Shown here in pieces: positions 3,101 through 60,400 of a DNA stretch of 64,000 nt. The notes under the pieces were generated by a model. That model saw nothing but the letters and a program-made list of their open reading frames with translations. It searched no databases and was not told where the DNA came from. This DNA comes from Mesostigma viride (taxonomy: Eukaryota > Streptophyta > Mesostigmatophyceae > Mesostigmatales > Mesostigmataceae). How positions within the stretch are numbered: the stretch's first letter is position 1; each line of letters starts with the position of its first letter. Position numbers and translations under genes: made by a program. The DNA lies in assembly GCA_009746045.1 (NCBI GenBank), contig RPFO01000038.1, positions 564,107 through 628,106 on the forward strand, given 5' to 3'.

Positions 3101-6100
3101 CTCCTCCCTCTCCTCCCTCTCCTCCCTCTCCTCCCTCTCCTCCCTCTCTTCCCTCTCCTCCCTCTCCTCCCTCTGCTCCCTGTTTCGCCTTTCCTTGCAT
3201 TCACTCCCTGCATGCTCCTATCCTGCAGCATGACCAGCGTGTGTCGGCCATCGACTGGTGCCCCACCACCAACATGATCGTTTCTTGCGCGCACGACCGC
3301 AACGCGTGAGTGGGCATGCCGCCACATATATAAGTATATATGTACAGCTGCCAAATGCATGGCATGGCTGGTAGCGGTAGATGGATTGTACTAGCAGACG
3401 TGACTCTTCTTGGCACAGCGGCTTGACTTTGTTTGGACTGGCTTGGCCTGGCGTTGTGAAATGTTCATTCTCTGCGGACTTTGAAGATGTCTTATCAAAG
3501 TCTGGAATCGTGCTTAGCTTCGCCCGCTGCCAATTGCCCGGGGGGATGCACCCTAGTGAGGGGGCAGAACTGCCAATCAAGGGCTGGGCTGCACGATGGA
3601 CCCTGGAGGAGGTCGTGGCCTCCATGTCATATTGGAAAGAACTTGCCGCTGCATGGGTTTATGGATGGTGGGCATGAAACGTGTGGTTGTTGGTCTCTGT
3701 TCGAAAATTCATTCAGGAAGTACTTACCGTTACGCCAGGTCAAAAGATGACGATTAGACAAACGTCTTTCGCCAAATATACATGTAGTATCAGTTCAGTC
3801 TACTACAAAGAAATAAATGGGTTATTGTTTAGCACACGAGTGCCATCAAATGCAAACCCTTGTCTGAAACTGTGTGAAAAGCAACTTTCATTAATGATCT
3901 CTTTTACTTATAATCTCTACGCCCACTACTAAACTCGCGCGTTGTGCTGCCTCTTCATTTTCCGTTTCCCGGTTCCCTGGCCCCGCATCTGCCTGTGCGG
4001 GCTACCCCCTGGCAGCTATGTCTGGAAGCTGAACGCGGAGGGGGTGTGGGAACCCATGCTGGTGCTGCTGCTGCTGAATCGGGCGGCGTTGACGGTGCAA
4101 TGGAGCCCAAAAGGTGAGCGGTGCATAGGGAGATGCATGCGTGCCCTTGCCGATGATGCCACTGCAGGGCTTGAATCCCATGAGCGCAACAAACAGCGTA
4201 GCATGCCAGCTTATATGGTTAGGAAGTTGCCATCAGAAGCCCTACATATTCTGCTATTGCTAAGGAGGGATGCGTTGGGGACGACGTATCTGTCTCTTGG
4301 CGAAAGGACCCACTATTTGCTCACAGTGTTTGCTGACACTGTTCGCTCTCCTGTCGCGCCGCTTGCACGCGGCGGGCTCCTGTTGCAGGCAACAAGTTTG
4401 CGGCGGGCAGCGGCGCCAACTCGGTGTGCATCTGTTACTACCAGGAGGCCAACAACTGGTACGTGCCGCACCCCCTCTTCCTTGCTCGCTGTGGCTTTGC
4501 AGGTGGTGCATTTCATTAGCCATCACGGCGATTTGTTGCCATCTTAGTTTTGCCATTGCATGTCTCCGGGATTTCCTGCAACGCTGCCTTGTTCCTTTTT
4601 TGGTCTAGGATGGGGCCCCGAATGGGGATGCACCCGTGCGACCGTGCAGTGCCCCGCACAGGGTCCAAAATCATCACCCCTTCAATTTGCCTTGTATTTG
4701 GTGGCGGACCCTCGCATGCCCTCCTTACGCTTCCTTGGTATAATTGCCTGTATCTTCGCGGTCGCGTGCTTTTATTAGTTGTATGAGAACAGGGGCCGAG
4801 TCTGTTTGGTCAACGCATGCGCTGCCCCGTAATGCACCAAGCCTGTACTTTGTCCAATCGCGCTGAACTTATTCGCGCTTTGCCCACCCGCCATGTTGAC
4901 TAGCTTGCTCACCGCTCGCGCGCTTCATGGCGTGGCACCCTCATCCTGGCGTCCGAACCCTCCCTGAATGCGCACCCTGAATGCGCCAGGTGGCTGACCA
5001 AGAAGATCACCAAGAAGCACTCGTCTTCCGTGCTGAGCGTGGCGTGGCACCCCAACAACGTAAGCTGTGGCTGGCACTGGTTGGGGGCATGCATGGGGCA
5101 GCGCACCCTAGCAGGCTGGCGGTTCCTCGTACCACCTCTGGTATCCCACAATTCTCATTCAAAATACTATAATAATAATGCCTGGGTATGCCTTGCTGGG
5201 ATATTGCAGGGCGGCATACGGCCAGCATGTTGGCCACCAACACAGCTGTTGCAGTGAGGAGAAGAGGGGGCCAGCCGCCGAGCTTTTTTCTGTCATTCCC
5301 TATTTCCGCAGGCCGGCCGCCTCTATACCTCATACTGATTGCAGCAGGGTGGCTTCTGGGCGGTCATCTGACTCTCTGCATGCACAAGCATTCAGCAAGT
5401 CGACAAACCCCCTTTAGGTCGACAGTCATGTGTGTGACCTTCAACAATGCCTGTGATCTCGTGCGCTGTGCCCGCACCCTGTGACATTGTCGCCTTGGCG
5501 CCATCATGGCCTGGTGGCTCCTGGCATGGTTGCTGACTGGATCCCTTTCTGTTGCCACGGCATGTCTTGCCGATCCGGTGGCCATCGTCTCTCGTGGACG
5601 TGCGACGCGTGGTGGCGGACGATGCATGCATTTTGGCGGCTGATGATGCGTGACGTGTGGTGGAGGCAGGTGCTGCTTGCGACCACGTCGTCCGACAACA
5701 AGTGCCGGGTATTTGCGGTCTACGTCAAGGGTGTGGACGCAGCCGAGTGAGTCCATACATGTTTAGTAGCGTATGTGAACAATACTTGCCGTAGTGGTCA
5801 AAATCACTTTGCAGCAAATACTTTGCGAATCGACCTCGCTAACTTCCATTAATTTGCTTTATTTTGGCTCACAAGCATGCCACTGTACTCGTCTGCTACA
5901 TTTTTATCTAATTTCATTAGATAATACTGATAACATTTTGATATAACTTCATTAGATAATACTTATAACATTTTGATATAATTTCATTACATAATGCTGA
6001 TAAGGCGCCGCGTTGCAGGTACCATGTTGAAATAGTTTTGCCTCGCAAATCTAAACTTTGAACTTTTTTTGGGTCGCAAAGTAATTTTGACCTCTACGGT

Positions 6101-10900: not shown

Positions 10901-13900
10901 CAGGTCTAGTGCATGGGTTTATCTTGCCGGTATACCTTGACAAGTTCCTAATTGTCAAGTTTATAGTATTCATAACCCTTCTGAATAGGCAACTATGCGG
11001 GAACCGTGGTGGTGCCACCACGTGTGTGGCTTACTGTGCTGCCCACCCTGCTGTGCGGCGCACAGTGGGCCACGCACCATGAGCCGTGGTCGCTCATGAC
11101 CTCCCTCATCGCAACTGTGCCCATGGCACTGCTGTGCCCCCCATGTTCTGACACCTGTCCCGTGGACGCAGGTCCCTCCTTGAGGCGATCGACCAAGTGG
11201 CCAAGTCCGCGGGGGGAAAGGCGGGATCGCAGGTGAGCGCGGACGCCCGCGTGCTAGTGTGCGCAGACGCTGGCACGTGCCCCGACGTTTTTTTCCTTGC
11301 CAAGGCGGCGGCTGGGCTGGGCCATGTGTCTGTGGCCGCTAGGGGAGGGTTGGAGGGCGTTGCTACTGGGTCACAACGGAGCCGGATTCCTTTTGTGTGT
11401 GTGGTGGGGGTGGTAGGATGCTGGGGGTAGAGGATTTCCGATGGCAGGATCCTGCCTGACCAACTTCTGGCACTTGGGCTTGCTCGGATACACCCAGCAT
11501 ATCTCCAACTTGCAAAGACTTGCAGCAGAAACGCTATGAGAAAGTGGCTGGCTGTCTTTGTGTGATAGCTTGTCTTTGGGATCATTTGTGCATAGCCTGG
11601 GTGCTTGTGGCTTGGATTGTGGGCCCAGCGGTTTGCTTGAGTGATTTGTTCCTGTTGACACGGATACTGCCTGCATCTGCGTCATGCCCTCCTTTGTTCC
11701 CTTCGATGGCATTCCCTGCCATCCGGTGGCCCCCAGTTCACCGCTGCATTTGAGAAGTTCCACATACAGGACACCAAGGGGCAGGAGACGAGCGGGGGGG
11801 AGGCCCCGCCCACCACGCAGCACCTCAACTGCATCAGGTGAGCATGCGCTAGGCTTGGCGAGGGCGACCCCTCCCAATTCTAGCCGGCGCACAACACTCC
11901 CTAGGTTCTCTTGAGCGGTGGGTTTCGTGGGTGCTGGTAATGACATGAGTGCTGAGGAACAATCAGTGGAAATACGCACCCCTGGCTAGAATGCATGTGG
12001 GACTCTCTGCATCTGGGCCCACCGGCAAGCGCCATGAGTGTGGAGAAACACATGGGTAACCGACATGGACAGGGTGGGTCGGTCGTGCGTGCCAAGCTAG
12101 AGGTCCCGGTGATGGAACTGACGTCTTCATGGCACTGACGGGGTGCGCCCTAGCAACCCTCTAGCGACTGTTGCAGCGTCATGGGTGGGAGAGGCCTCTT
12201 TCCAGCGTCGGCCGATAAAGACGGGTGCCCCAGGATGCTTGTCAGTGGTAGACAGTGTGTTTTGACCTCCCAGGCATTCAACATGGCGCCTGTCAAAGGG
12301 ACATGAGGTGAGTCCTGGCACACGCAACACCCTACCAGTGCACCCCTGGCTGGGTGGCTGGCCGCACATTGTCATCGGAGTGTCCTTTGAGTGTCCTCTT
12401 CGCCTGGGTTCGATCTTGTTGCCGGGTAGCTCACAGCCGTAGTTTCCTTTGTAGCTCAACGGCTGCGCAAGGCAACCCTTATTAAGTGGAAAACAGCCCT
12501 TACCAGTCTCGGTGTGCGAAAGGAATGGCTGGAGCAACATTGTGCCTCCCGTTTGTGAGATTGTCCTGGTGCGTGGTGCGGCCGGGACTTGTCATGTGGC
12601 GCAAGCTTGCCTGCCTTGGTAGAGACTGCAGACATGGCTTCTACCTTGAAATGCGTGCCTGAACTTTTCAGCGGTTTCAAGTCGCTGATGGCCACGCATA
12701 TGTCATTTTGGTGCAGATAACATACGAATTGGGAGACATCGTGCAGCAAGTAGGTCATGTTGTCAAACACTGCATGTGCAAATTTTCTATCCATGTTTGC
12801 ATGGCAATCTTTGTACTACGTAGTCTAAGTTCCATTCATTTTCATCCTTTATGCTGGTATCAAGGAGACAACCAGCGCAGACCAGAAATCGGGAGAATCC
12901 GGACCATGGTAGCTCGAGCCTGCCGTTATCTTGTCCGCGTATTCGAGTCGTTCAGGATGATGAATATGAATGGTGATGGAAATGTGTAGCCTTGTGCATT
13001 GAAATTATGGCTGGCTTACGTGTAGAGCGACTAGATGACCTGGACGGTGGGCCCGGAAACAGCTTGCTTGATCAGGGTGTGTGTTTCGAGCCTAACTGGC
13101 CGGGAGTGTCTAGTGGTGAGCACCATTGCTGCGATCGCTCTCCCACCATTTACGAGGAAATACCCGCAAATGGAAAACCACTGAAAAGGTCTAGCTAGTC
13201 AGTCGTTACGTTAGCCATGCCATGATTCCAAACGTCCAAGAACTGCACACGGTGCAAAGGCAAAAATGCGGAGGAAAGCACTTTCAAATGTGCGGCGGGA
13301 ACCAAAATCCCGTGTATGCCAGAAAACACCGTGTTGCTGCAGCGACGCGACGATGTGGACAACGAATCCAGTGCCAAGCTCGGATTAGCCGCAAAGGAGA
13401 TCTGGCATCACAGGGTTCAGATGTGCGGAGATACTACGCGATCTAGCCGGTCCACGACCTGTTTGTAGAGCTTGTGCCAAGGGGCAGCACCGAACAGATG
13501 TGGGTGACGTTGCAAAAAACACCGGACTTGATGGAGCATAATGTCTCGGTGATAGTCTTTGACCAACAAACGATGCAAGAGTTCAACCAGAGTCGTGATG
13601 AAATCCACACGATAAGAACACAGCCGGTCAAAACGATGCAACTGACTAGAAACAACACCATATTTTGCTGTGTGGGAAAGGAGACTGTGAATATCGGGGT
13701 AGCGAATAAAAGGAATTTGCTGATATTTAGGATCCTTGCGCTTATCATAGACAGCCGTACGCCAGCCCTTCTTGTTATGGGTTAATGTTAAGATCGAGGT
13801 AATTGCAACTAGTATCCTCCGACGTGAGCTGCAATGTGAGGGCCGCTTGCGTGTAGATCATCTCAGCCAGTATGCTAATGCTAGCATGCTAGTAATCTGG

Positions 13901-16580: not shown

Positions 16581-16872
16581 TATGTATACATCTCCGGCCA
16601 GCAGGCCCGGCCTGTCTTGTCATGGGTATGCACTGTATGAATTAGCAATGCCTGTATGAAGGGTCCACCACCTCGGTCCGCACTTCTTATGGGTCCACGC
16701 CACCATGCCCTCTACAGAAGGGTGTGTGGCAGGGCTGCGTGCTCTCGCCATACTTTTTCATTATTGTGGTCGAACACGTAATGATTCAGGCACGCAAGCG
16801 GTTTGCTCGCATTGTGGGTAGGGAACCAGGGGTGAAGCTAGGTCGCCAACACATTCTGGCATATGGCGGGGC

Positions 16873-16908
16873 TCTCCTGATTTCTGCCCTGCGCTGGTTG
16901 TCTCCTTG
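16873..16908 (+). mobile_element. 36-bp family D insertion with 12-bp target duplication
   Basis: Only the last 36 bp of family D (ending GGTTGTCTCCTTG) are present, flanked by direct repeats ATATGGCGGGGC at 16861-16872 and 16909-16920. The related LINE at 28.9 kb lacks the insert. Confidence 0.85.
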
Positions 16909-17225
16909 ATATGGCGGGGCGAACACGGAGATTTGGCTAGCGGAAATAATCTATGCCGACGACACCACTCTCTTCGAGGAAACTGCATGAGCACGTGCAG
17001 ACGTGGCTTGACTGCCTCGCCATCGAGCTAGGCCAGAGTGGTGGGGCTCGAGGTCAGCAAGAAGATAGATCGAGGCCCTGGCGGTTGGGCTCACTCAGCC
17101 ACCGCCCGGCCGCTTCCTCCTTGATGGCTCTCGGGTCCAGTATAGGGACCGCATCAAGTTTCTGGGTAGCTTATGTACTCCGGCCCCAGCCGCGGGGCTG
17201 ATGTGGACCACCGTATCTCCCTCGC

Positions 17226-17469
17226 AGGAATCAAACTTTTTCGCATGAATTCGCACTCTTTTGGCCTGTTTTAATTGGTCAGTTTCAGCAAAATTTGCAA
17301 GATTTCGCATGATTTTACACATTTTTGGCCCGTTTTTGGTAAATTTCTGCAAACTTCGCGCGATTTCGCACAGTTTTGCACGGTCGGCCAAAAGAAAAGT
17401 TAAAAAGGCTGAAATTGGCGTTTTTTTCTCGCATAAATCTTGCGCCCCATTCTCTGTGGGACCACCTGC
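17226..17469. mobile_element. AT-rich insertion of unknown type in LINE A1
   Basis: About 240 bp absent from the LINE copy at 28.6 kb, rich in TTTCGCA and TTTTGGCC blocks repeated inside it. No coding capacity and no clear terminal repeats. Class unknown. Confidence 0.6.
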
Positions 17470-17495
17470 CTGGCACGCTTTAATTACGTCAATAC

Positions 17496-17719
17496 ACACG
17501 CCCTGATCAAGCATGCTGTTTCCGGCCCCACCGTCTAGGTCATCTAGTCGCTCTACACGTAAGCCAGCCATCATTTCAATGCACAAGGATACACATTTCC
17601 ATCACCATTCATCTTCATCATCCTGAACGACTCGAACACGCGGACAAGATATAACGGCAGGCTCGAGCTACCATGGTCCGGATTCTCCCGATTTCTGGCC
17701 TGCGCTGGTTGTCTCCTTG
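17496..17719 (+). mobile_element. Family D 5'-truncated insertion in LINE A1
   Basis: About 224 bp matching the family D 3' region, ending TGGTTGTCTCCTTG. It interrupts the LINE between segments matching CTGGCACGCTTTA and CCCTGTGGCGCAAG of the intact copy at 28.6 kb. Confidence 0.85.
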
Positions 17720-18505
17720 ATACATGCAGCCCTGTGGCGCAAGCCCTTGGGCAAGCTAGAGAAACAGGACATGTTCTCTGCATGGTCCTGGTCCTGGTCC
17801 TCCCCTGTTCTTACGTATGGGGCCGGCCGAGACGTGGACCTTCGATCGATCACATGCAGTGCCGACCTTGCCAGAAAGCTGGACGGCGCGGTCATGACCA
17901 ACATGCTGGGCACCCGGTCAATTTTGCGTGTGGGATACGCTGCTCATGTCCGCAGGACTTGCATGTACCTCGACATGCCACATATCTGCACCAGCACCAT
18001 TAAGCAGCGGCGCCTGCAGCTAGTAGGGCATGCACTTAGCTAGCTCGCACCAACCAGCTAGGTAAAGACATGACAGGCCTCAAGTGGCCCCTCCGCAGGG
18101 CGCGCCGGCTGCGACCAGCTCGATCAGCCTGGCAGGCACCTCCTCGATCACGTGGGCCGGGCCCAGCAATGCTAGACGCCGCGAGGCCCGCACTTTCAAA
18201 TTAATAGCAGCTAGTAGAGGACATGGGGGGGCTATAGGCCTCTCCGTGATTTGGAACAAGATGATGGACAAGGCCAAGTGGACTCAGGTCATATCTAGAG
18301 GACAACGACCCCCCTCCAGTGGGGAAGCGCCCGCGTGTTTGCAAACGCGGGAAGCATGCGCTAGACAAGAATATAGATCTATAGTGAGTTGGCTTGTTTT
18401 TGTAGATAGATTAGACCGGTAGCCATTGCGTGTACCCATCCATCCATCGGGGTTAATGCTCCGTGACTCCCCAATGGGAGCACGAGTTTATAATTGAGTT
18501 TTTAA

Positions 18506-19282: not shown

Positions 19283-21049
19283 TATATGCTTATCTGATAC
19301 TGATCTAGCCTCTTAAGCCGGGCCCTTGCGTGCACCAAGCCGGCCCTCGCGTTCACGGTGGGTCGGGTGACATGCCCCTTTCCCACTGGCGTCCCGGCAC
19401 TAGTTACAGCCACATGGCCTTGTCATGCATTGAATTCCAGACAATGCGTGGAGTGGCCAATACCCGCCATCCCCGCGGCATTGGGTTGATCACTGGATGT
19501 CCGTGCATGCATGGTCCAGAAAGTGCTTCTAAGCCAGCTTTGGCCGGGCCTCCCCACGTGACGTGCCGGCCAGGCTAGTGGGCAGATCGACCGGAGCCAA
19601 TTAGCGCCGGGGCCCCGAGAGGTCCCAACTTGATTGGTGCAGGCTAGATGCCTGCTGATTCTATCTATGTTGCTTAGCTGCACTGCTAATGTGCGGCATG
19701 CCAAGAGACCAAATCTTGCTCATGTCGTGGCCGGCACACCCAACCCGAAAGGTATAACGCAATTTGCGCGGTGACTGAGCCGTTCAGCATCGCTTCTTAT
19801 GGTACTTCTACATCGTTTTCAAGGCAAATAAAGAAAAACAAGCTACCAAGTATTCCTTACCGTTGCATGTGTAAAACGGCATGTGTTCGAAAAGAATTTG
19901 TGGGTGTCCTGGCTACTACTGCATGCTTATTTTGGCCACCACAAGTATAGGCCTGCATTGCAGCGCACTTCTTTCATTGCGGCATATTTTCGATAACTAC
20001 GTCATGGTTCACACCCACGGTTCACCTGCGGCCGGGCCTGCATCCGGCACGCATCTCCACCAACCTCATTACAGCTCGCGGATCCGAAGAAACGCACGCG
20101 CATCAGACGCAACAACTAATGAAGGAAATTAATTTAGACCGACTAGACCCCGCCGCTCATGAATCATGATCAACATACTACAAGCCTCGGCACTCAGTCG
20201 GGCGTCCGGTCGGCACTCGGCCGCACATGCTCGGTCCATCCTCATCCGTCGTTAATTAAATCCTCACCATGTCCTCATCGTTAATTGTCGTCCCTTGCCT
20301 GGTGACCTGGTGCTTACAGTAGTCTCCCAAATCCAAAATCCCGACTAAAAGAGTCACGACTCTCGAGTCCCGAGTCCCGACCATTTTGGCATTTTGTCCC
20401 GACTGCCATTATACTGTATTATTTGCGGCAGCCAGCATATCTGAATACCCGCGTGCACGGCCGGCCCGTTGCGGCGCGTCAGGGCTACATGTCGGCCCGT
20501 GTTGCGGAGATTCCCGGAGTGAGTCGTGAGCGAAAATCAGGCTTTTGACAGCTGGCTGCCTTCCGCAAGCCCAAACAACTGTTTGCTTGCTTGCTGGGTT
20601 TCGGGCGCGTGGCCTTGCTACTGTTTCTTTACACGTGCTGTGTACAGTACGTTACGTCCTGATTATCAAAGAAGAGCTGAAAAGAGTGCCTTGGTGCGAA
20701 ACGTTAACTAGGGAAAATAACGAGTAACGTAGCGCAGTCATGAATAATGATTTTCCGAACAGCGAAAAGGCGACAATTCCTGACACAGTGGAAAGGCGAC
20801 GACACAGACCATGGACAAAACCTGCCTTGGTTTGTCAGTTAGCCCGCGTAACCGACTCTCAGCTTCGATGGATGATGGACGTAGACATGGGTGGCGAATA
20901 ACGTCAAGAGCATGGTTATATGGCTAGCGAGCAAGGCGAATCGACAAGGCTGCCTTTCGGTGTTACAGTCGCAAATCGCGATTGCTACTGAAAATTAATG
21001 GTGAAAATTACATCGAGCCCAGATTGTTAGTGTTAAGAAGATAACATAT
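19283..21049. other. Intergenic region upstream of the copper ATPase
   Basis: No gene supported. It holds a stretch at 20335-20400 with repeated GAGTCCCGA blocks and, near 20640, a TGTACAGTAC motif. GTAC is the core of copper-response elements bound by the CRR1-type regulator in Chlamydomonas; here it is only a weak hint, since the tetramer is common. Confidence 0.45.
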
Positions 21050-24000
21050 ATGGCGAACAGTGGCATCCTGTACGACGAGCTACCGGTATCATCCATGAAG
21101 ATCCAGACCTGTTCCTGCAAGCAAACGGGCGTGTGTACTTGTGGGCCAGTTTGCCGGTGCCCCGTATCCCACGACACCTCGGGAAGCGCGCACGGCTCAT
21201 CCCGCGCGCCCTCCGAGGTGTCCATCTCGATCAAGCCTCCTACAATTCACAAAGAGACGACGTTGCACGTGGGCGGCATGACCTGCGTCAGCTGCGTGAA
21301 TTCGATCCAACGCGTGTTTGCGCGCCAGCCAGGCATCGTCTCCGTGACCGTCTCCCTGCTAGCCGAGGAGGCCACCGTCCTGCATGAGAGATGGCTGGCA
21401 CCGGAAACCGTCGCGACCATAATTTCGGACGCGGGCTTTGACGCCACCGTGTCCAAAACGCAGCTAACCACGCCGCGTGGAGGCGACATGCGGTCCATCA
21501 CGCTGCAGGTGACCGGCATGACGTGCGCTTCATGCTCGGGCGCCGTCGAGCGTGCCCTGAGCGCGATCGAGGGCGTATCCTCGGTCCAGGTGTCCCTGCT
21601 GGCCGGCACGGCGCGTGTGCTGGCGGACGGCACGCGCGTGTCCACGGCCACGCTTCTGGAAGCCGTGGACGCGATGGGCTACGCCGCCGCCCTCGTGATG
21701 GACCGGCCCCATGCGCCTACGGCTGCCTCGCAAGGCAGCCGCTTCCACGATAAAGCTATCGACGCGAATGTCATCGGCTCTAACACAGCTACCATCCGTG
21801 GCGGCTCCGCTGCTGCCATCGGCGCTGCTGCCAGTAATAACAGCGCCAGCGATGCGGTTCGGATGCGGACGCAAATCGTGCGCATTGTGCGCGGGTGGAA
21901 CCCCCGCACGGCCCAAGCCCTCTCCTCCCTCCCCGGGTGCATGTCCGCGCGCTTCGACCCCACCACGTCCATGCTGGACGTGTCCTGGGACCCTGGACTG
22001 ACCAAACTGCGTGACATCATCGCCGTGCTCCAGCGCTTGGGCGTCGCCGCTGATGCGCGCGACCCGGCGATACTCCGCAAGCTCTCTGCGCTGGGAAAAC
22101 ACGACGAGGTGGCGGCGTGGCGGCGGCTGGCATTATTCTCGATCGTCTTCGCGGTCCCCTTCTTCATCTGGAGCATGCTCCTCATGGGTGTGCCAGCGGT
22201 CATGTCACTGCGCATGCGCCACGTTATCGGGTCGTTAGACCTGGGGACTCTCATCGACGCGTGCCTGGCCGCACCGGTCCAAGTGGTGGGCGGCGCGCGC
22301 TTCTACCGGCACGCTTATGCCGCGCTACGCCACCGCCAGCTCACCATGGACGTGCTGGTGGCCACCGGTACCAGCGTCGCGTTCCTTTACTCTCTGGCCA
22401 CCATGGTGGTTGCGGCGGTCAGCCGCGTCCCTCCTGTTAATTTCTTTGATACCTCCGTCAGCCTCATCACCTTCCTGTCCATTGGTCGGTTCTTGGAGAA
22501 CAAGGCAAAGGGGTCGGCCTCGGCGGCTCTATCAAAACTGCTTGCGCTGTCACCGCCGAAAGCACTCCTCGTGCTGGATAGCCCGTCAGAAGCGGACAAC
22601 CCACAACTGCCCATGAAGGATTCCCAGCCACCCCTGGTGTTAGAGCGGCTACCGCCTGGGCCCTTGGCCCCGCGTGATCTGCCTGCGGTAGGCACGCAGC
22701 AGCTGCCGCGCTCAGAAGCCAGGGATGGCAAGGGTGCGCATTTCCTTCTCGCCCATTCGCCGGGCGATGACGATCCCGCGTCGTCACTGATGACACCGCT
22801 ACTTGACCACGCCGACTCGTCTGTGCGTTCGGCGACAGGAGAAGACGAAGAGGAGGACGCAGAGGGGGCAGGTGATGGCCCCCTGCTCGAACCTCTGGTG
22901 GGGGAGGAGGCCTCCTCGCCCATGATTCGCGCCGCAGAGGAAGGCTACGCTCCGGCTGTTGGCACGGTGGCGGAGCCACAGGAGCACCCGGCAGGTGCCG
23001 GAGTGAAATCAACTTCACCATCCATGCAATTAACTTTATCATCAGCACAGCCAACGTCATCAGCAGGGCCAGTGGGGGCAGCTACGGCAGCCGTTCGAGA
23101 GATCGAAAGTGAGCTGCTCGAAGTAGGGGACGTCATCAGGGTGCCACCTGGCGCGCTCGTGGCGGCCGACGGGACAGTCCTGTGGGGCACTGCCAGCGTG
23201 GACGAGTCGATGGTAACAGGGGAGTCGCTCCCCGTGACCAAGACGCTGGGGGACAAGGTGACAGGTGGCACGCTCAACACATCAGGCGTCCTCCACGTGC
23301 GCGTGGATGCCCTGGGGGCTGACACGATGCTGAGCCGCGTCGCCGCCGCTGTGGAGGATGCTCAGACCGCAAAGGCGGGCCTGCAGCGGCTCGCAGACCG
23401 CTTGTCAGCGGTGTTCATCCCCACCATCTTGCTCCTTGGGCTGGCCACGGTGGTCGGGTGGCTTGGGATCCTGGAGATGGTGCTAGGGGGGGTGGTCCCT
23501 CGGGCCCTACGGGACATTGTGGGCGAGGGACCGGCACCCTTAGCACTCGCGTTGCGCTTTGGCATCAGCGTGGTCATCGTCGCATGCCCCTGCGCGCTGG
23601 GTCTGGCCACGCCCACCGCGCTCATGGTCGGCACGGGCGTCGGCGCGCGGTGCGGCGTGCTGCTCAAGGGGGGCGCCTCTCTCGAGGCTGCACGACGCGT
23701 CTCAGTGATCCTGCTGGACAAGACCAACACACTCACGACGGGACGGATGACAGTCGATACCGTGCTGCCACTGGGGGCGTTCAGGGCTACCTCTTCGCAA
23801 GGTGACCCTTATTGGGAGGGGTATCGAGTGCAGGGGGGGGATGATGTGCTGGGCCCGTCGTGCAACGGGGCGGATGCCAGCAGCGATGGATCTGGGGACA
23901 AGCTTGCGGAGGGTGCTGTGGGCAAGAGGCTCCAGCTGCCAGAAGCGGCATGGTATACAGGGAAGGACGCTCGAGACGCTCAAGATGCTCAAAATAGGCT

Positions 24001-25384
24001 CCGACTAGTCCTGCAGGCGCTGGAGATGGCAGAGCAGCACTCTGAGCACCCGCTGGCCAAGGCGGTCGTGGCCTACCTAGCGCAAGCAAAGCTCGGGCGC
24101 ACCCGCGGTCTGACCATGGTCTCGTTTGAGTCGGTCGCTGGGTTTGGCATCTCTGCCGTGTTTGTTGAGTCCCTGTTGGGCGCGGACTCGGATGCCGCGC
24201 AACTTGGGGCCAATGCCGCAGATGCGAGTCCCCAGGCTTTTTCTTTGCCTGTTGACGGGACCACAGATGGTCAGCAGGGCCAGCCGTCCTTGCATAATGC
24301 TGGGTCTACGGACATGGGGGGTAGCAAGTCACACACACTGCTCGTGGGCAATGCACGTTGGATGGAGCGGCACTCCATCGCATTCCCTGGTGTTGATCAG
24401 GCGGTCAGCAGCGGCAATGGACACCCGGCTTCGGGAAGAGCGGGGGATGGCGTGTCCCCGGGCCCGGCTGCGAGCGGAGGGAACCGAATGTTTCCATTCC
24501 GGTCCATGAATGGGGGACGTGAGTCCCCCAGGACGAATCCGTCCCCCGGCCACCCGTCGTGCTGCACCGACGTAAGAAAGCAGCAATTGGTGGGGCTCGA
24601 GACAGAACCCCTGGTTGTGGGCGTTGGGGGCGGGGACAACTCCCCCGTGGCCGCTCGGGGCACTGGCCTGGCAAAGTCTCCACCAGCGGTTCATGGCCTC
24701 AAGTCTGCAGACTCGCAATCCACACATGCCACGCCGGCTCGTGAGGCCATCCGGCACAGCAAGGAGGGCCGGGCGACCACGGACGTCTTGGTCGCGTGGA
24801 ACGGCTCCCCTGCGCTCCAAATACTGGTAACCGACACGCTCAAGCCAGACGCCGTCGCCACCGTCAAGCGGCTCAAGGCACTCGGCATCGAGCCCATCCT
24901 CGTGACGGGCGATTCGGCCGTCGCGGCACGCCGCGTGGCACATCAGACGGGCATCCGCCAGATGTTCGCGCAGCAGTCGCCGATGGACAAGGCAGCATTG
25001 GTGCGCAAGTATCAGTCTCGAGGGGAGACAGTGGCCATGCTGGGTGATGGCGTGAACGACTCGCCCGCGCTGGCAGCAGCAGATCTCGGGGTCTCGGTCT
25101 ACAACGGGACGGATATTGCATTGGAGGCAGCCGGCGTGGTGCTGATGCGGGATCGGCTCGGGGACGTGGTGACGGCGATACGGCTGGCACGGGCGATTGT
25201 CCAGCGCATCCGCGTCAATTTCGCGTTTGCGCTCGTGTATAATGTGGTCATGATTCCCGTAGCGGCGGGAGTGGGCGTGCCGGTGGGGGTCGTCCTGCAC
25301 CCGGCGCTGGCAGGGATCGCGATGGCACTCTCCTCCGTCTCTGTCGTCATCTCATCGCTCATGCTCAAGCAGTTCAAGCCATAG
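21050..25384 (+). CDS. Copper-transporting P1B-type ATPase, intronless, with Cys-rich N-terminus and DKTNT loop
   Basis: Membrane pump that uses ATP to move Cu(I) out of the cytosol or into the secretory pathway (RAN1/HMA5/ATP7/Ccc2 group). 1444 aa in one uninterrupted frame. Order: three CxC pairs at C21/C23, C29/C31 and C35/C37 (metallothionein-like); heavy-metal domains with CVSC at 79-82 and CASC at 159-162; a third domain around 275-340 without Cys; eight predicted membrane spans; TGES at 723-726; copper-site CPC at 846-848; phosphorylation loop D890-K-T-N-T; HP at 1000-1001; TGD; GDGVND around 1333; YN in TM7 and MALSSVSVV in TM8. Two low-complexity insertions swell it: about 180 aa before TGES and about 130 aa in the nucleotide-binding domain. 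The invariant Gly of DKTGT is Asn (codon AAC), which may impair phosphorylation or reflect error. All introns are missing, unlike its neighbours. The start at 21050 puts the CxC region in frame. Confidence 0.95.
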   Translation: MANSGILYDELPVSSMKIQTCSCKQTGVCTCGPVCRCPVSHDTSGSAHGSSRAPSEVSISIKPPTIHKETTLHVGGMTCVSCVNSIQRVFARQPGIVSVTVSLLAEEATVLHERWLAPETVATIISDAGFDATVSKTQLTTPRGGDMRSITLQVTGMTCASCSGAVERALSAIEGVSSVQVSLLAGTARVLADGTRVSTATLLEAVDAMGYAAALVMDRPHAPTAASQGSRFHDKAIDANVIGSNTATIRGGSAAAIGAAASNNSASDAVRMRTQIVRIVRGWNPRTAQALSSLPGCMSARFDPTTSMLDVSWDPGLTKLRDIIAVLQRLGVAADARDPAILRKLSALGKHDEVAAWRRLALFSIVFAVPFFIWSMLLMGVPAVMSLRMRHVIGSLDLGTLIDACLAAPVQVVGGARFYRHAYAALRHRQLTMDVLVATGTSVAFLYSLATMVVAAVSRVPPVNFFDTSVSLITFLSIGRFLENKAKGSASAALSKLLALSPPKALLVLDSPSEADNPQLPMKDSQPPLVLERLPPGPLAPRDLPAVGTQQLPRSEARDGKGAHFLLAHSPGDDDPASSLMTPLLDHADSSVRSATGEDEEEDAEGAGDGPLLEPLVGEEASSPMIRAAEEGYAPAVGTVAEPQEHPAGAGVKSTSPSMQLTLSSAQPTSSAGPVGAATAAVREIESELLEVGDVIRVPPGALVAADGTVLWGTASVDESMVTGESLPVTKTLGDKVTGGTLNTSGVLHVRVDALGADTMLSRVAAAVEDAQTAKAGLQRLADRLSAVFIPTILLLGLATVVGWLGILEMVLGGVVPRALRDIVGEGPAPLALALRFGISVVIVACPCALGLATPTALMVGTGVGARCGVLLKGGASLEAARRVSVILLDKTNTLTTGRMTVDTVLPLGAFRATSSQGDPYWEGYRVQGGDDVLGPSCNGADASSDGSGDKLAEGAVGKRLQLPEAAWYTGKDARDAQDAQNRLRLVLQALEMAEQHSEHPLAKAVVAYLAQAKLGRTRGLTMVSFESVAGFGISAVFVESLLGADSDAAQLGANAADASPQAFSLPVDGTTDGQQGQPSLHNAGSTDMGGSKSHTLLVGNARWMERHSIAFPGVDQAVSSGNGHPASGRAGDGVSPGPAASGGNRMFPFRSMNGGRESPRTNPSPGHPSCCTDVRKQQLVGLETEPLVVGVGGGDNSPVAARGTGLAKSPPAVHGLKSADSQSTHATPAREAIRHSKEGRATTDVLVAWNGSPALQILVTDTLKPDAVATVKRLKALGIEPILVTGDSAVAARRVAHQTGIRQMFAQQSPMDKAALVRKYQSRGETVAMLGDGVNDSPALAAADLGVSVYNGTDIALEAAGVVLMRDRLGDVVTAIRLARAIVQRIRVNFAFALVYNVVMIPVAAGVGVPVGVVLHPALAGIAMALSSVSVVISSLMLKQFKP

Positions 25385-27880: not shown

Positions 27881-27894
27881 TTAATTAATTAATT

Positions 27895-30800
27895 AGACTC
27901 GTGCTCCCGTTGGGGAGTCACGGAGCATTAACCCCGATGGATGGATGGATGGGTGCAAACATTCCTACCGGTCTAATCTATCTACATTGGCTACATACTA
28001 CATCTATCTAACAGCATTCTAGCTACAACATCTATCTAGGCAGCCGCACGTTGCCCTAGGGGGAGCTATCTGGTGTGCCTCCCGCGGGATTGCACACGCG
28101 GGCCGCTTCCCCACTGGGGGGGGCTCGTTGTCCTCTATGACCTGGGCCCACTTGGCCTTGTCCATCATCTTCTTCCAAATCACGGAGAGGCCTAGGCCCC
28201 CCATGTCCTCTACTAGCTGTTCTTTGAAGGTGCGGGCCTTGCGGCGTCTAACGTGCTGGGCCCAGCCCACGTCAGGAGGTGCCGGCCAGGCTGGGCTGGT
28301 CGCAGTTCTGCGGGGGGGCCACGTGAGGTGTCTACCTGGTTGGTGCGAGCTAGGTGCCCTACTAGCTGCAGGCGGCGTTGCTTAATGGTGCTGGTGATAT
28401 AGGGCATGCCCTGGTACAGGTCCTCATTGCGGACATGAGCAGCATATCCTACTCTGAAAATGGAACGCAGCATGCTGGTGACCGCGCCGTCCAGCTTGCG
28501 GGCCGGCAGGTCGGCGGTGAGGGTCCACGTCTCGGCGCCATACGTGAGAACAGGAAGGACGAGGACCTTGAACAGGTCCTGTTTCTCGATCTTGCCCAGG
28601 GGCTTGCGCCACAGGGCCCGGTACTGGCGTAAAGCGTGCCAGGCGAGGGAGATGCGATGGTCCACATCAACCTCGCAGCTAGGGAGCAGGCTGCCCAGCA
28701 GCTTAACGCGGTCCCGATACAGCACTAGTGAGGACTCGAGAGCCGTCTAGGAGATAGAGGGGCGGCGCTGAGTTGGTGAGCCCAACCGCCAGGGCCTCTG
28801 TCTTCTTGCTGACCTCAAGCCCCACTGCACGGGCCTCGAGAGCCAGGCAGTCAAGCCATGTCTGCACGTGCTCAGTGTCTTCGAAGAGGGTGGTGTCGTC
28901 TGCGTAAATGATGTCTGCTAGCCGAATCTCCGTGTCCGCACCGCCATGCCAGAATTTGTTAGCAACCTGCACTCCTGGTTCCCTGCCCACGATGCGGGCA
29001 AATCGCTTGCGCGCCTGAATCATTACGTATTCGACAACAATTGTTAATTCACTCACGGTCCTAAATTTAGGACTTTGTCCTAAATTGTCCTAGAGGTCAC
29101 TATAACCGAGGTACCGGGTAGGGGGGGTCACTATATGGTCCGTACCCCATGTCCACCGTACCCGGTATGATGTACCCGACCCGTGGTACCGGCACATGGT
29201 ACCCGGATTCCGTACCCGGGTACCGGGTATAATGGCGGGAAAGTAGGTACCTCGACCAAAAATATAACCGATTTTGGAGCGAAAAAGTGGGTGCGGGAAT
29301 GAAGTGAGGTGGATATCGCGACCTGACAATCGTGGCCGGCGTTTTCACGTGCGTTTATCATTTCGGGCGCCCAGTAGCAAAAACGAAAGGTTGTTAGTTA
29401 TGCTTAAAGGCTGTGAATATTTTCTGCCAAGTTTTTATGTGTAGCGCTGTATCACAGCGGCACAACACAAATGGGTCGCAGATCGCCTGCTCGCGGAGGG
29501 TCGATTTTGGCACAAACATGTTAGTGTATTAGCAATGGTGGTGCGAATCAAGCCAGGAAATTTTTGTGGACGATTTTTATTTTAGTCTGGAGTTTAGAAA
29601 CGGAGTATTTGACATGGGAGCGCCTGGGCCGTGATATTCTTGCCCGATTTCCATTGTCGACCATGTTTTAGGGACGTTCAGGCTGGGCAGCGAGCGCACC
29701 TTATAGGTCTTCACTTTCGGTATTTCTTGGACCTAGAACGCAGCACAAGCTTGGTTTATATCATTGTCGAACCGGTTGGCCAGCTTTGGTGCGCTCAGCT
29801 CTCGGAAAGCTGACCTCGCTGCGGATTTCAGCGACTTTTTTGCAACCATCTGGAATGAGGCGACGTAAGTAGCAGGTAAGTGCCGGGTTGTCCTAGATCA
29901 TGAGTGTAACTGGCAACGCTGTCGTGGTGTTTTGAGTCAGCCAGCTATGCCTAAAAAGAGGGGACGCTCTCTGTGCACATAACTGTCACACATAGTTGGT
30001 TTACGTCATACAATTTTTTACGTCGCTATCTTCGTCGTCCGCTGCAGCTAAAACACACATGCGTAAGAGCAGTTTTACTCATGTGTTAGTTATAAACCAT
30101 CGTCCTATGGCCTGCAGTCGTTCAGGGTGTTCTCAGACAGTATATACAGTATGGTTTACGTGTTACATGCACGCTGAATTCGCTCACAAAGCGTTGCATG
30201 TTAGCACAACGTTGTTTTGTAACTTGATTTGGCTGCATTCATGTGTTAGTTGCAATGCAAATGCAATGTTTTTTCATCGCTGGGTGGTGGCCAGCATGTC
30301 CGTGATGTCAAAGAAGGTTTGGCATATGCTTAGAGAAAGTTTACTGCATGGGGTGGGCCATGTTCAAGCCGGGCAACCTCAGCAACCATGCAACCCTATA
30401 TTGCATTACCTGCACCATCTGTGACACCGTTAATCACGCGTATATATAGAGGCAGCCACAGCAGGGTATGGCCTTGTTATACGCTGCCCCGCCATCCCAA
30501 GGCCTCGTAGGGTCCCCTAGCGCTTGTAAGATGCTCAAGGGACCGTGTGGATAGCATGGTCATGCGTTGACAATAATTGGTCCTAATGGTCCTAAAACCC
30601 ACATTTTGGCCAAATTCGCGCTTTGAGGTCTTGCAGGTGGCAGGGCCCATTCATGCACTAAATGTAATTATTTGACCCCAGGTTTTTGATGCCAACTAAA
30701 AAAGTGTGTTATCTGTCATGGGAACGAATGCCAGGGTCAAATTTTAATGTTTGCATGTATATATTTTAATTCAAAGTGGTCCTAAATTTAGGACTTTTTC

Positions 30801-31837: not shown

Positions 31838-32085
31838 TCATGCGCTAGCCATCTCCACGCTTATAAGGCAGATTCGCATGCATCCGTGGACACGTGTGAT
31901 TCTTTCCACCGTAACTGCTGGCCCTAGCCTGTCAGTGTGGAAGCTGGCAGTTATGTTGCAAACCGGCCTGGCGCACTGACCCCGTGCTAGCCATCTCCAC
32001 GCTTATAAGGCAGATTCGCATGCATCCGTGGACACATGTGAAATCTTCTTGACACCGTAGCTGCTGGCCCTAGCCTGTCAGTGTA
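31838..32085 (+). repeat. Two direct repeats of about 100 bp
   Basis: GTGCTAGCCATCTCCACGC to about CTAGCCTGTCAGTGT occurs at about 31838-31937 and 31982-32083. Between them, 31946-31982 matches the upstream edge of the family D copy at 27450-27483. Confidence 0.75.
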
Positions 32086-42128: not shown

Positions 42129-42689
42129 ACAATGACTTTTACCATGTTAAGCAGGTTAGCAGGAGATATTTCCTGCAGTGTGATGGTGCCAGGCAGGGCG
42201 CCCTTGCTGTTGCCAATGTGGACCATTGAACGTATACATGTATCCATGCGATAACTAATAACTATATACCTGATTCCAAGACAGCTTGTCCTGCCTCTTT
42301 TTCCGTATCACTTGCAAGAGGCCGAGGCCCTCCATGTCCATGATCCACTAGTTGATCCCAGACCGTGTAGCCGGTGCAAGGTTCCACGTGCACTATCCGC
42401 ATGCATAAGTATAAGTAAGTAAGTGCGTGAACATGCACTGACGGCATGCCACGGGGTACCCAAAGAGGTATCCGGGTAGGTTGTATGCTTAGCGCCCCGG
42501 TAGCTAGCCCATCAATTAATTAATTATAATAGACACGTGACTGCCGGCAGCTAGCCCATGCTGGAGAATATAAAGGCTTTACCCAGAGCCTGCATGCCGA
42601 TGATTTTTTATTTTTTTTTTTAAATAAAGACTCCACGCATGCCAGTTGCCATCACTGGCTCCACGGGATGAGACAGGCCTTCAATAAAA
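42129..42689. other. 3' flank of the epimerase gene
   Basis: AT-rich, with a T-run at 42606-42620; no gene seen. Confidence 0.45.
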
Positions 42690-43741
42690 GCTTGCATGGG
42701 GCATACTGATCGGGCTGACCTGATTTATGCGGACGACACCACCCTCATCGCGCGCCCCGAGCACATTCAGACCTGGCTGGACTGTCTGGGCCTGGAGGCG
42801 AGGGCGGTGGGGTTGGAGATTAGTGTCAAAACTGAGGCGATGGTGATTGGGGCCTCCAGTCGCCCACCGCTGCCGCGCCTGCTCGACGGGACGGAGGTCC
42901 CATTCCGCGACCGCTTCAAGCTGTTGGGGAGTTGGCTTCCTGACACTGCCGACGATGTGGACACCCGCATCGGCCTTTCCTGGGCCAAGCTCCGTTCGCT
43001 CAACACCTACTGGCGCTCCAAGGGCCTGGACGAGCACCGCAAGCGCATGCTCTTCATTAAGGTCCTCGTCCTCACGGTGCTCACGTATGGCGCCGAGGCA
43101 TGGACACTCACGGCAACACTGGCAGCCAAGCTAGACGGCACGGTAACCCGGATGCTCCGACAGGTCCTGAATGTCGGGTTTTCTCAGCGTAGGTCATTAG
43201 AGTCTTTGTATCACGGTATGCCGCGTATTTCGGACGAGATTAGGCAGCGTAGGATAGCATTTGTAGGACATCTTGCTCGCACCAGCCAGGTCGACACCGC
43301 CCTTGGTCTGGCCGGTCCCCAGCGGCTCGGCCAACCGGGGCGGCACATTTTGACCTGGCCTGGCCCCAAGAACATTCCTAAAAAGGTAGGGAAACATGCC
43401 ATGACCTATACCCAGATGTTGCTGGACAACCTAGTGGTCCCAGCCCAGTTTGAGTACCGCATCCACTCTCTCTCCCGTCTTTGGACTGCCATGCAGGACA
43501 AGACGCGGTGGAAGAAGATTGTCAAGGCGCACACGCCAGCCCCGGTGGGCAAGCCGCCTCCCCCCAAAAGGAGGAGCCGTTTTGATGAGTAGCGTAGATA
43601 GGCTTTTCTAGACTAGATATAGCTTAGAGTTAGGATAGTTCGATTACGCGGCTTCCTCCACACCACCCATCCAACCTGGAATATGTGCTACATGATCTCC
43701 CAACGGAGACATGTTATAATTTAATTTAATTTAATTTAATG
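42690..43741 (+). mobile_element. LINE family C, 5'-truncated, with intact distal RT frame
   Basis: One open frame at 42696-43592 (298 codons) covers the RT catalytic block ADLIYADDTTLIARPEHIQT, LLDGTEVPFRDRFKLLGSWL, VLTVLTYGAEAWTLT, QRRIAFVGHLARTSQVDT and a Lys/Arg-rich tail KPPPPKRRSRFDE. The upstream RT and endonuclease are absent. The 3' UTR ends with ATGTGCTA, a hairpin CATGATCTCC-CAAC-GGAGACATG (43691-43713) and (TTTAA)n. The open frame suggests a younger insertion than the family A copies, to which it is clearly related. Confidence 0.9.
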
Positions 43742-45681: not shown

Positions 45682-51243
<5,562 letters not shown>

Positions 51244-57978: not shown

Positions 57979-58377
57979 TACTATTGAGAGCACAGGAGAC
58001 ATGACCTGTGCGGTGACTTGAGCATTGTAGTAGGGCATTCATCCCTTCCGCCAGCACATAATGTGCATGGCAGATGGACAGATAAGGGTGCTTCTGCAGA
58101 CAAGCGTGGGCAAGTCTCGAGGAATCCAAATGTGCGATGTGCCCAAAATTGAGTGTTGTTTGGGGGGGGGGGGGGACCTTGGCGCTGCAGCTTAATCTCA
58201 CTTGGCCGCATGCCATGTAGCATGCATAGTTGGCAACAAAATGGGCTTTGTTATTCAGATGAGGTTCCGCTTCTTTCACCACCGAAAGCTAGGAACTGAG
58301 TGGGCATATCAGATAACACACCGGAGCTTTGTGGAGATCTGCAAACCCATGCACATGATGGCCGCAACGCTCGACAC

Positions 58378-58735
58378 CACAAGGCCCGCACCTTCAAAGA
58401 ACAGCTTGTAGAGGACATGGGGGGGCTAGGCCTCTCCGTGATTTGGACCAAGATGATGGACAAGGCCAAGTGGGCCCAGGTCATAGGGGATCGACAACGA
58501 CCCCCCCCCCCCGTGAGGAAGCGCCCGCGTGTTTGCAAACGCGGGAAGCACGCTGGACAGGACCCCTAGGGTAGAGAGCTTAGATATGACAGAGTTGGCT
58601 TGATGATGTAGGTAGACTAGACCGGTAGGATCAGAATAGACCGGTAGGATTGCGTGTCCCCATCCATCCATCCATCCATCCATCCATCGGGGTTAATGCT
58701 CCGTGACTCCCCAACGGGAGCACGAGTTTCATTAC
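58378..58735 (+). mobile_element. LINE family A 3'-end copy (A3)
   Basis: 5'-truncated copy covering ARTFKEQLVEDMGGLGLSVIW and the 3' UTR with CATCC repeats and the CTCCGTGACTCCCCAACGGG hairpin. It carries one 4-nt palindromic insertion (GATCGA at 58489-58494) relative to A2. Confidence 0.85.
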
Positions 58736-59522: not shown

Positions 59523-59770
59523 CGTGCCCCCGTTGGGGAGTCACGGAGCACCGCGGAGTGCTTTTAATCCCTGCATGTATATCAAAGAGACAACCAGCGC
59601 AGGCCAGAAATCGGGAGAATCCGGACCATGGTAGCTCGAGCCTGCCGTTATCTTTTCTGCATATGTATATATGCACAACAGGTTAAGAAAGGGCAGAGAC
59701 CCCCTTTCTCCTTCATGCATGCCAGAGGCATGCCACAACAGCAATCGGACATGGTAGACGATCCGGCAAA
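59523..59770 (-). mobile_element. Family B element split by a family D insertion
   Basis: Minus-strand family B, interrupted at 59581-59656 by 76 bp of the family D 3' end. Flanks CTGCATGTAT (59571-59580) and CTGCATATGTAT (59657-59668) are an imperfect target duplication. The nesting shows family D moved after this B copy. Confidence 0.82.
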
Positions 59771-59804
59771 TTCTGTGGGCCGGTGCAATAATTAATTAAT
59801 TACA

Positions 59805-60039
59805 CTCGTGCTCCCGTTGGGGAGTCATGGAGCACCGAAAGTGCTTTTAATCCATGTGTGTGCACAACAGGAGAAAGGGCAGAGACCCCCATTCTCCTTC
59901 ATGCCAAAGGCATGCATGCCACAGCTGCAATCGGACACACTAAACGGTCCAATAATCCGGTGCAATCAGACCCGCGTACGTGAGCATATCATAGCATGGA
60001 GCGTGGGCAAGCAAGCGGAGCATAGCTAGGGCGTAGCAT
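59805..60039 (-). mobile_element. Family B short element
   Basis: Minus-strand copy next to a family D copy; 3' hairpin GTGCTCC...GGGAGCAC and an ATTAATTA tail at 59791-59805. Confidence 0.75.
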
Positions 60040-60400
60040 CAAGGAGACAACCAGCGCAGGCCAGAAATCGGGAGAATCCGGACCATGGTAGCTCGAGCCT
60101 GCCGTTATCTTGTCCGCGTGTTCGAGTCGTTCAGGATGATGAAGATGAATGCATATCGATGGAAATGTGTATCCTTGTGCATTGAAATTATGGCTGGCTT
60201 ACGTGTAGAGCGACTATAGATGACCAGCTAGACGGTGGGGCCGGAAACAGCATGCTTGATCAGGGCGTGTGTTTCGAGCCTAACTGGCCGGGAGTGTCTA
60301 GTGGTGAGCACCATTGCTGCGATCGCTCTCCCATCATTTACGAGGAAATAGGTACCGCAAATGGAAAACCACTGAAAAGACCTGTCTAGCTAGTGAGTAG
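60040..60400 (-). mobile_element. Family D 3' region copy
   Basis: Matches 26279-26625 with several short insertions (for example GGTACC near 60350 and GCATATCGAT near 60152). Confidence 0.8.

Follow-up and report, generated by a model that had tools for sequence, protein, structure and literature searches.

The window analysed here is a 64,000-nucleotide stretch of contig RPFO01000038.1, from a eukaryotic assembly of 439,911,974 bases in 2243 contigs. It contains copies of a long interspersed nuclear element (LINE). One of these, A1, is a broken copy interrupted by a fragment of a second repeat family, R, and the short insertions that A1 carries at 16836-18300 are the subject of this report. 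The features needed to follow them are given below by window position, with strand where one applies. All insertions were placed by alignment.

16763..17226, plus strand: LINE copy A1, upstream part, with the insertions at 16836, 16984, 17026, 17068, 17173 and 17180 (alignment to A2 29041-28642 and to the C1 protein)
17729..18360, plus strand: LINE copy A1, downstream part, with the bulk of the remaining insertions (aligned with A2 28617-28072 and with A3)
17494..17723, minus strand: R-family fragment nested in A1; its sole listed insertion (TATA) is common to two other loci (family alignment)
27887..29041, minus strand: LINE copy A2, a relative without the A1 insertions (alignment)
58364..58735, plus strand: LINE copy A3, carrying a GA to GATCGA change of its own at 58489 (alignment)
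42672..43592, plus strand: C1, a related LINE with an intact 306-amino-acid frame, used as reference (open reading frame, ORF; protein alignment)
16836..16841: AG to AGCTAG
16984..16989: TG to TGCATG
17026..17031: AG to AGCTAG
17068..17073: GA to GATCGA
17180..17185: CC to CCGGCC, in a longer gap shared with ATGTAC at 17173
17823..17828: CC to CCGGCC
17842..17851: TC to TCGATCGATC, +8, within a +14 gap
17853..17858: CA to CATGCA, within the +14 gap that holds 17842
17960..17965: TG to TGCATG
18029..18034: CA to CATGCA, in a +8 gap shared with 18038
18038..18043: AG to AGCTAG, in the +8 gap shared with 18029
18056..18061: AG to AGCTAG
18120..18125: TC to TCGATC, where A2 has CC
18144..18149: TC to TCGATC, where A2 has TG
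18199..18204: AA to AATTAA
18233..18236: TA to TATA, +2, a palindromic dinucleotide
18292..18299: TA.TCTA.GA, the reverse complement of TAGA inside its own TAGA (class 2, below; unique solution, d=0)

In class 1 insertions a dinucleotide XY becomes XY.rc(XY).XY, where rc is the reverse complement. The original prediction had counted about 16 palindromic insertions in A1, and alignment to A2 bears out this form for 15 of them at their places. Seven of the 15 readings need a longer gap to be split or one base change at the site: one base change is required at 17173, 17180 and 17842 lie within longer gaps, a single +8 gap holds both 18029 and 18038, and one earlier base change is required at each of 18120 and 18144, where A2 lacks the TC that the rule wants. 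The sixteenth, predicted as ATCTAG near 18293, is present but belongs to a sister class rather than to the XY type. Nineteen class 1 hexamer positions were checked in the window, 15 of them within A1; 18 matched and the remaining hexamer reads at 17853. The first reading had missed CATGCA at 17853, the +3 forms CATGA near 17894 and CTGCA near 17986, and TATA at 18233. A1 is the densest copy examined, with 24 class 1 hexamers in 1096 bp against about 4 expected.

The insertions are derived and their sequence is not random, as had been claimed. Measured against the intact C1 frame, A1 needs 18 inserted segments (+4, +8, +14, +3, +6 and others) and A2 needs four; the first of the 18, near 16932, is matched by one in A2 and is left out of the derived set. 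The insertions at 18199 and 18233 are missing from A3. Among the window's repeat copies, 11 of 18 isolated net +4 gaps can be read as XY.rc(XY).XY at no cost in mismatches over a freely chosen insertion, where random tetramers predict 0.32 (P about 4e-16). Also in A1, at 16863-16920, about 40 bases of the R 3' end lie between two copies of ATGGCGGGG, a very short insertion with a 9-bp target duplication.

Contrary to what was first proposed, the signature is not confined to one LINE copy. We aligned four repeat families (R, A, C1 and H), and all four carry it, with uniquely decoded events in 14 records besides the window. The other copies in the window are as follows.

12856..13750, plus strand: R-family copy with no insertion of at least 2 nt listed, used as the family query (family alignment)
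60038..60398, plus strand: R-family copy; five private insertions fall within its 345 aligned bp (60152, 60215, 60225, 60351 and 60380; family alignment)
59714..59719: H-family copy, CA to CATGCA
59778..59783: H-family copy, GG to GGCCGG
32040..32047: class-2-like GA.AATC.TT with adjoining base changes (alignment only; fails the strict fit)

The R family is probably retroelement-like, to judge from its fixed 3' end, truncated copies and target duplications. Reverse transcriptase domains were matched in A2 and in record L028. Where they can be classified, the aligned families look like retroelements. Tracts of (AATT)n occur at window 25750, 27503, 27880, 33034, 42514 and 59789, and several adjoin LINE 3' ends and look like tails. 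In R and H copies (for example L020 near 2430 and L013 near 850), several of the +2 insertions that no class explains are the dinucleotide CG, which was counted by eye at about five distinct sites.

Both classes, and an intermediate, follow a single rule. With anc as the ancestral sequence, derived = anc[:p1] + rc(anc[p1-2:p4+2]) + anc[p4:], where p1-p4 (d) is 0, 1 or 2 and the gain is always +4. A value of 2 gives class 1. A value of 0 places rc(U) inside the four-base word U, which is class 2; R copies supply CA.AATG.TT, TG.TCCA.GA, AG.ACCT.GT, TA.AGTA.CT and AA.CTTT.AG. A value of 1 gives the intermediate, observed as GTT.TAA.TATC.

The rule was scored family by family and all-vs-all. The R sample comprised 51 copies (21.6 kb, 278 substitutions against the consensus); the all-vs-all comparison covered 49 records (295,448 bp). 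Before counting, we discarded copies that diverged by more than 15-20%, contexts in which mismatches exceeded 1-3 (the threshold varied by analysis) and gaps with a close neighbouring gap, and simple-repeat contexts were also removed for the all-vs-all context counts and the clean-gap length counts. All-vs-all, the longer copy was simply assumed to be derived.

Family by family, the rule fits 14 of 16 +4 events in R (expected 0.48) and 23 of 32 in LINE/H copies (expected 0.95). All-vs-all, it fits 51 of 73 +4 contexts in other repeats (expected 1.95) and 81 of 122 in the known families (expected 3.53); one insertion can recur against different relatives, so independent events number fewer than 73 and 122, and the 122 overlap the family-wise set. 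The P value for 51/73 is about 6e-71, treating as independent contexts that are not wholly so. On the same 73 and 122 contexts the reverse control fits 6 and 9 (expected 2.33 and 4.4) and the direct control 0 and 2. The complement form fits 7 of 32 LINE/H +4 events (expected 0.67), which we think arises largely because palindromic words satisfy both forms. A 1 + 2 version of the rule, giving +3, fits 4/5 events in R (expected 0.78), 4/5 in LINE/H (expected 0.83), and, all-vs-all, 25/40 in other repeats (expected 6.28) and 35/50 in known families (expected 7.28).

Four nucleotides is the commonest small gap between repeat copies, and about two thirds of these gaps obey the inverted rule. Clean gaps of 1 to 8 nt number 93, 111, 69, 149, 5, 12, 8 and 6, so that the counts fall off a cliff after 4 nt. 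The 42 distinct R insertion sites, mostly private, show +1 at 4, +2 at 9, +3 at 8, +4 at 17 and longer gains at 4, beside 9 deletion sites. A single class suffices for 31 (d=2), 11 (d=0) and 7 (d=1) of the clean +4 gaps under 2 + 2 and for 2 under (1,3); several classes serve for 66. With the 2 + 2 rule alone, unique solutions among the 102 fitting events are 53 (d=2), 17 (d=0) and 14 (d=1). Palindromic XY behaves differently. It gives XYXY (+2; 5/19, expected 0.9) and is rarely the source of a +4 gain (1/31, expected 8), although the latter count favours uniquely decodable events and is thereby biased in this direction from the outset. For the 102 fitting events together, junction homology matches chance: 22 at the return and 26 at the exit, a quarter being expected. 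No clear shared target motif was found at the insertion sites (4 bases at each of 8 positions, smallest P 0.0066). The process typically inserts up to 4 bases, the reverse complement of up to 2 nt to the left plus up to 2 nt to the right of one break.

Several simpler descriptions were rejected. Small insertions are usually direct duplications. Here simple slippage or tandem duplication explains 8/73 and 23/122 of the +4 contexts (expected 1.22 and 1.88) against 51 and 81 for the inverted rule, the two fits overlapping for palindromes. Ordinary two-sided P-nucleotides (left + rc2 + rc2 + right) account for 3/16 and 5/32 (expected 0.18 and 0.23), below the rule, and a strand-displacement or flap scheme accounts for class 1 only. 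Hexamer counts were not taken to prove that a process acts genome-wide; other period-4 words are also in excess, and (AATT)n tracts stand at LINE 3' tails. Class 1 hexamers number 266 against 138 in non-coding window sequence and show no excess in a copper-ATPase ORF (12 against 14-16). Their observed/expected ratio is 1.68 in DNA unrepeated within the sample, against 1.26-1.33 for reverse, complement and other-middle controls, with direct repeats at 4.2; for repeat-covered DNA the ratio drops to 1.24, under reverse (1.58) and complement (1.56).

In the sample the insertions are confined to individual copies, and are taken as derived on that ground as well. Only one of the 102 fitting +4 events recurs as an exact 18-mer in the 49 records, and that one is of low complexity. 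The 48 R copies compared for age (23,404 bp) carry 35 insertions of 2-4 nt beside 155 private substitutions. Seven R copies with one private substitution in 2264 bp already contain three insertions. By pairwise divergence, 4-nt gaps per kb rise from 0.62 at 0-2% to 3.9 at 6-8% and then stay at 2.6-4.3, for pairs that are not independent. A1 has no in-frame stop across 267 codons, aligned by a program that penalises stops, and its private amino-acid changes are 21/150, against 12/141 for A2. We read this as insertions that arise with or soon after integration, perhaps with later ones added.

Privacy to single copies is also what sequencing or assembly errors would show, as is a density that stays flat with age in R copies. 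We consider such an artefact very unlikely. In 33 tandem arrays (23,786 bp) there are two +4 insertions, neither of which fits, whereas the R density (17 sites per 21.6 kb) predicts about 19; arrays longer than 4000 bp were trimmed to 4000. This shortage argues against an artefact because homogenisation removes mutations, not read errors. The arrays' seven +2 insertions are about as many as R density predicts, which counts in favour of an artefact. Of their 63 +3 insertions, 58 match the +3 form, all of them copies of a single variant that spread by amplification in a 49-bp satellite; neither the +2 count nor the 5 other +3 insertions lie clearly below R. A 4.38-kb copper-ATPase ORF remains open, although the young-copy rate predicts 6.0 insertions in it (P 0.0025). 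A1 needs its 18 segments within 934 bp, compared with 1.36 insertions per kb in young R copies, and the R fragment nested in A1 has no private insertion. Finally, 1-nt gaps (93) are fewer than 4-nt gaps (149).

Two of these sequences deserve a description. The satellite extends over more than 11 kb just downstream of the window on the same contig (L053 2662-7989 and L054 1-5816), with the +3 variant spread through the array. The copper-ATPase ORF (window 21005-25384, plus strand) is intronless and has two HMA stretches, P-type ATPase domains and a phosphorylation motif that reads DKTNTLT, where DKTGTLT is usual.

The original prediction proposed that a 2-nt staggered cut is closed into hairpins and then opened again. 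That core survives and extends further: a stagger of 2 and an opening offset of 2 give the constant +4 and produce the second class too, which the prediction had not described. We tentatively favour this mechanism as the best available, at somewhat less than an even chance. A double-strand cut would leave a 2-nt 5' stagger. The recessed 3' end would be filled by 0, 1 or 2 nt, and the filled end would be sealed to the opposite strand to form a hairpin. The hairpin would be nicked 2 nt into the stem, and the opened end would join the filled partner end. A fill of 2 would give XY.rc(XY).XY, a fill of 0 would place rc(abcd) inside abcd, and a fill of 1 would give the intermediate. The process seems to strike copies when they are new or shortly afterwards, and not to run at a clock-like pace. 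Two constants (2 and 2) and a fill of 0-2 thus yield the rule, the 4-nt maximum, the lack of a homology requirement and the collapse of palindromic XY to XYXY, the last through annealing of self-complementary ends. Spo11/Topo VI-type cuts have a stagger of the right size, which makes these enzymes a candidate class. For mouse SPO11, cuts are reported to carry this stagger (PMC12918824). The PF04406 profile matches two places in the assembly, and the rule requires a 2-nt offset.

Several results weigh against this mechanism. Insertion density does not follow private divergence in the 48 R copies (rho 0.07, P 0.64), which is odd for steady repair. Simple fill-in products (XYXY from non-palindromic XY) are not in excess (1/19, expected 2.1), and the R family shows few deletions, unlike ordinary end joining. 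None of the tested classes matches 32 of the 149 clean +4 gaps. In ten loci taken after the rule was fixed, it fits 1/3 +4 events (expected 0.10) and 3/5 +3 events (expected 0.87), from few events. The +3 evidence is the weaker because its controls are raised too: reverse 11/40 and 7/50 (expected 4.07 and 5.17), direct 11 and 8, tandem 16 and 10 (expected 2.02 and 2.28). Junction homology is above chance for fill-0 events (return 14/27, P 0.003; exit 12/27, P 0.026) and below chance for fill-1 (0 and 0 of 14) and for the fill-2 return (8/61), differences that may come from assigning ambiguous events to the lowest class. On account of these class-wise counts we slightly lowered the weight of the hairpin mechanism and raised that of template switching. 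The retroelement look of the aligned families, where they can be classified, also means that the results bear on such repeats rather than on the genome as a whole.

Template switching while the element is copied is the main rival, and a distinctly possible one. The growing strand would jump to the displaced complementary strand, copy a few bases spanning the fork and return, during second-strand synthesis of LINE integration or strand-displacing replication. Such a switch would produce sequences identical to those of the hairpin route. The retroelement resemblance suits this setting, as does the fact that insertions are confined to individual copies in the sample and show no correlation with age among R copies. 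There are no fitting +4 insertions in tandem arrays and none in the host gene ORF, and A1 has 18 inserted segments yet no in-frame stop and 21/150 private amino-acid changes. The fill-0 inverted piece is contiguous across the break, which is natural for an intact displaced strand, and fill-0 events show some junction homology. Over all fitting events, however, that homology is at chance, so most returns would have to extend a 3' end that is unpaired. Template switching also gives no reason for exactly 2 + 2, and 4-nt gaps are more frequent in more diverged pairs, non-independent as these are.

The prediction's other suggestion, an excising element, fares worse. A cut-and-paste element with a 2-bp target duplication would leave hairpin-type excision footprints, and hairpin excision does yield P-nucleotides in the Ac/Ds work (PMC5873905). 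A net gain with few deletions is consistent with a retained target duplication, and events are overdispersed among young R copies (P 0.0085). Against this, large inserts in R, A2, C1 and H copies (window and L009-L040) overlap by 8-17 bp in most rows and by 2 bp in none, so no occupied site of the right kind was seen among those examined. There is no clear target motif, and a very large number of insertions and excisions would presumably be required. We regard this explanation as improbable.

The events were also compared with known systems. Class 1 corresponds to palindromic P-nucleotides at a junction (overlap 2, P 2). One event, at 60152, is two-sided and matches left + rc(3) + rc(3) + right exactly, 2 nt having been lost. 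Fill-0 events, unlike ordinary P-nucleotides, have two inverted pieces in opposite order. Excision of hAT elements (Ac/Ds) also leaves short palindromic insertions from hairpin ends opened off-centre (PMC5873905); here there is no element and no 8-bp duplication, and +4 dominates. Short-range template switches under the four-point model insert a nearby reverse-complement copy, and our rule can be written with four switch points (PMC7954356), but in our rule these points are locked to one another at 2 nt and no more than 4 nt are copied. In yeast, foldback inversions at double-strand breaks give very short templated inverted insertions with one end joined by non-homologous end joining; they are primed by inverted microhomologies beside the break and variable in length (PMC11724301). 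In our events the copied piece adjoins the break, junction homology is at chance overall and length is nearly fixed. In a study of human meiotic hotspots, inserted bases match the flank at 82% on average (PMC7615360). The signature was not recognised in the literature searched (open-licence PMC text, chosen terms).

Other sequences in and around the window were noted in passing. About 1.7 kb of nearly pure pyrimidine (1440-3180) lies inside an apparent intron of a gene that we take, from its exon translation, to encode an ARPC1-like Arp2/3 subunit. An ORF at 50263-51276 (minus strand) has no Pfam match; its start looks like a plastid transit peptide, so the organism may be an alga. Elsewhere, an ORF at L033 6536-7501 (minus strand) matches the transposase domain PF13843 (DDE_Tnp_1_7).

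Repeat-induced point mutation (RIP) targets copies of repeats and makes C-to-T changes. Repeat copies are affected in both cases; here the changes are insertions, with no sign that repeats are sensed. A so far undescribed enzymatic process that writes inverted tetramers with a fixed 2 + 2 geometry into new LINE copies, in effect an insertional counterpart of RIP, or a LINE-encoded by-product with that effect, is possible though less likely than not; it would sometimes come in bursts that disrupt the reading frame repeatedly, as in A1. The second half of LINE integration has been described as very poorly understood (PMC6895275). The 4-nt peak, the inverted rule and the sharp fall-off point either to a staggered break whose ends are sealed as hairpins or to some distinctive step in how LINEs integrate. 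On either reading a specific enzymatic question becomes testable, and other genomes can be searched for the signature.
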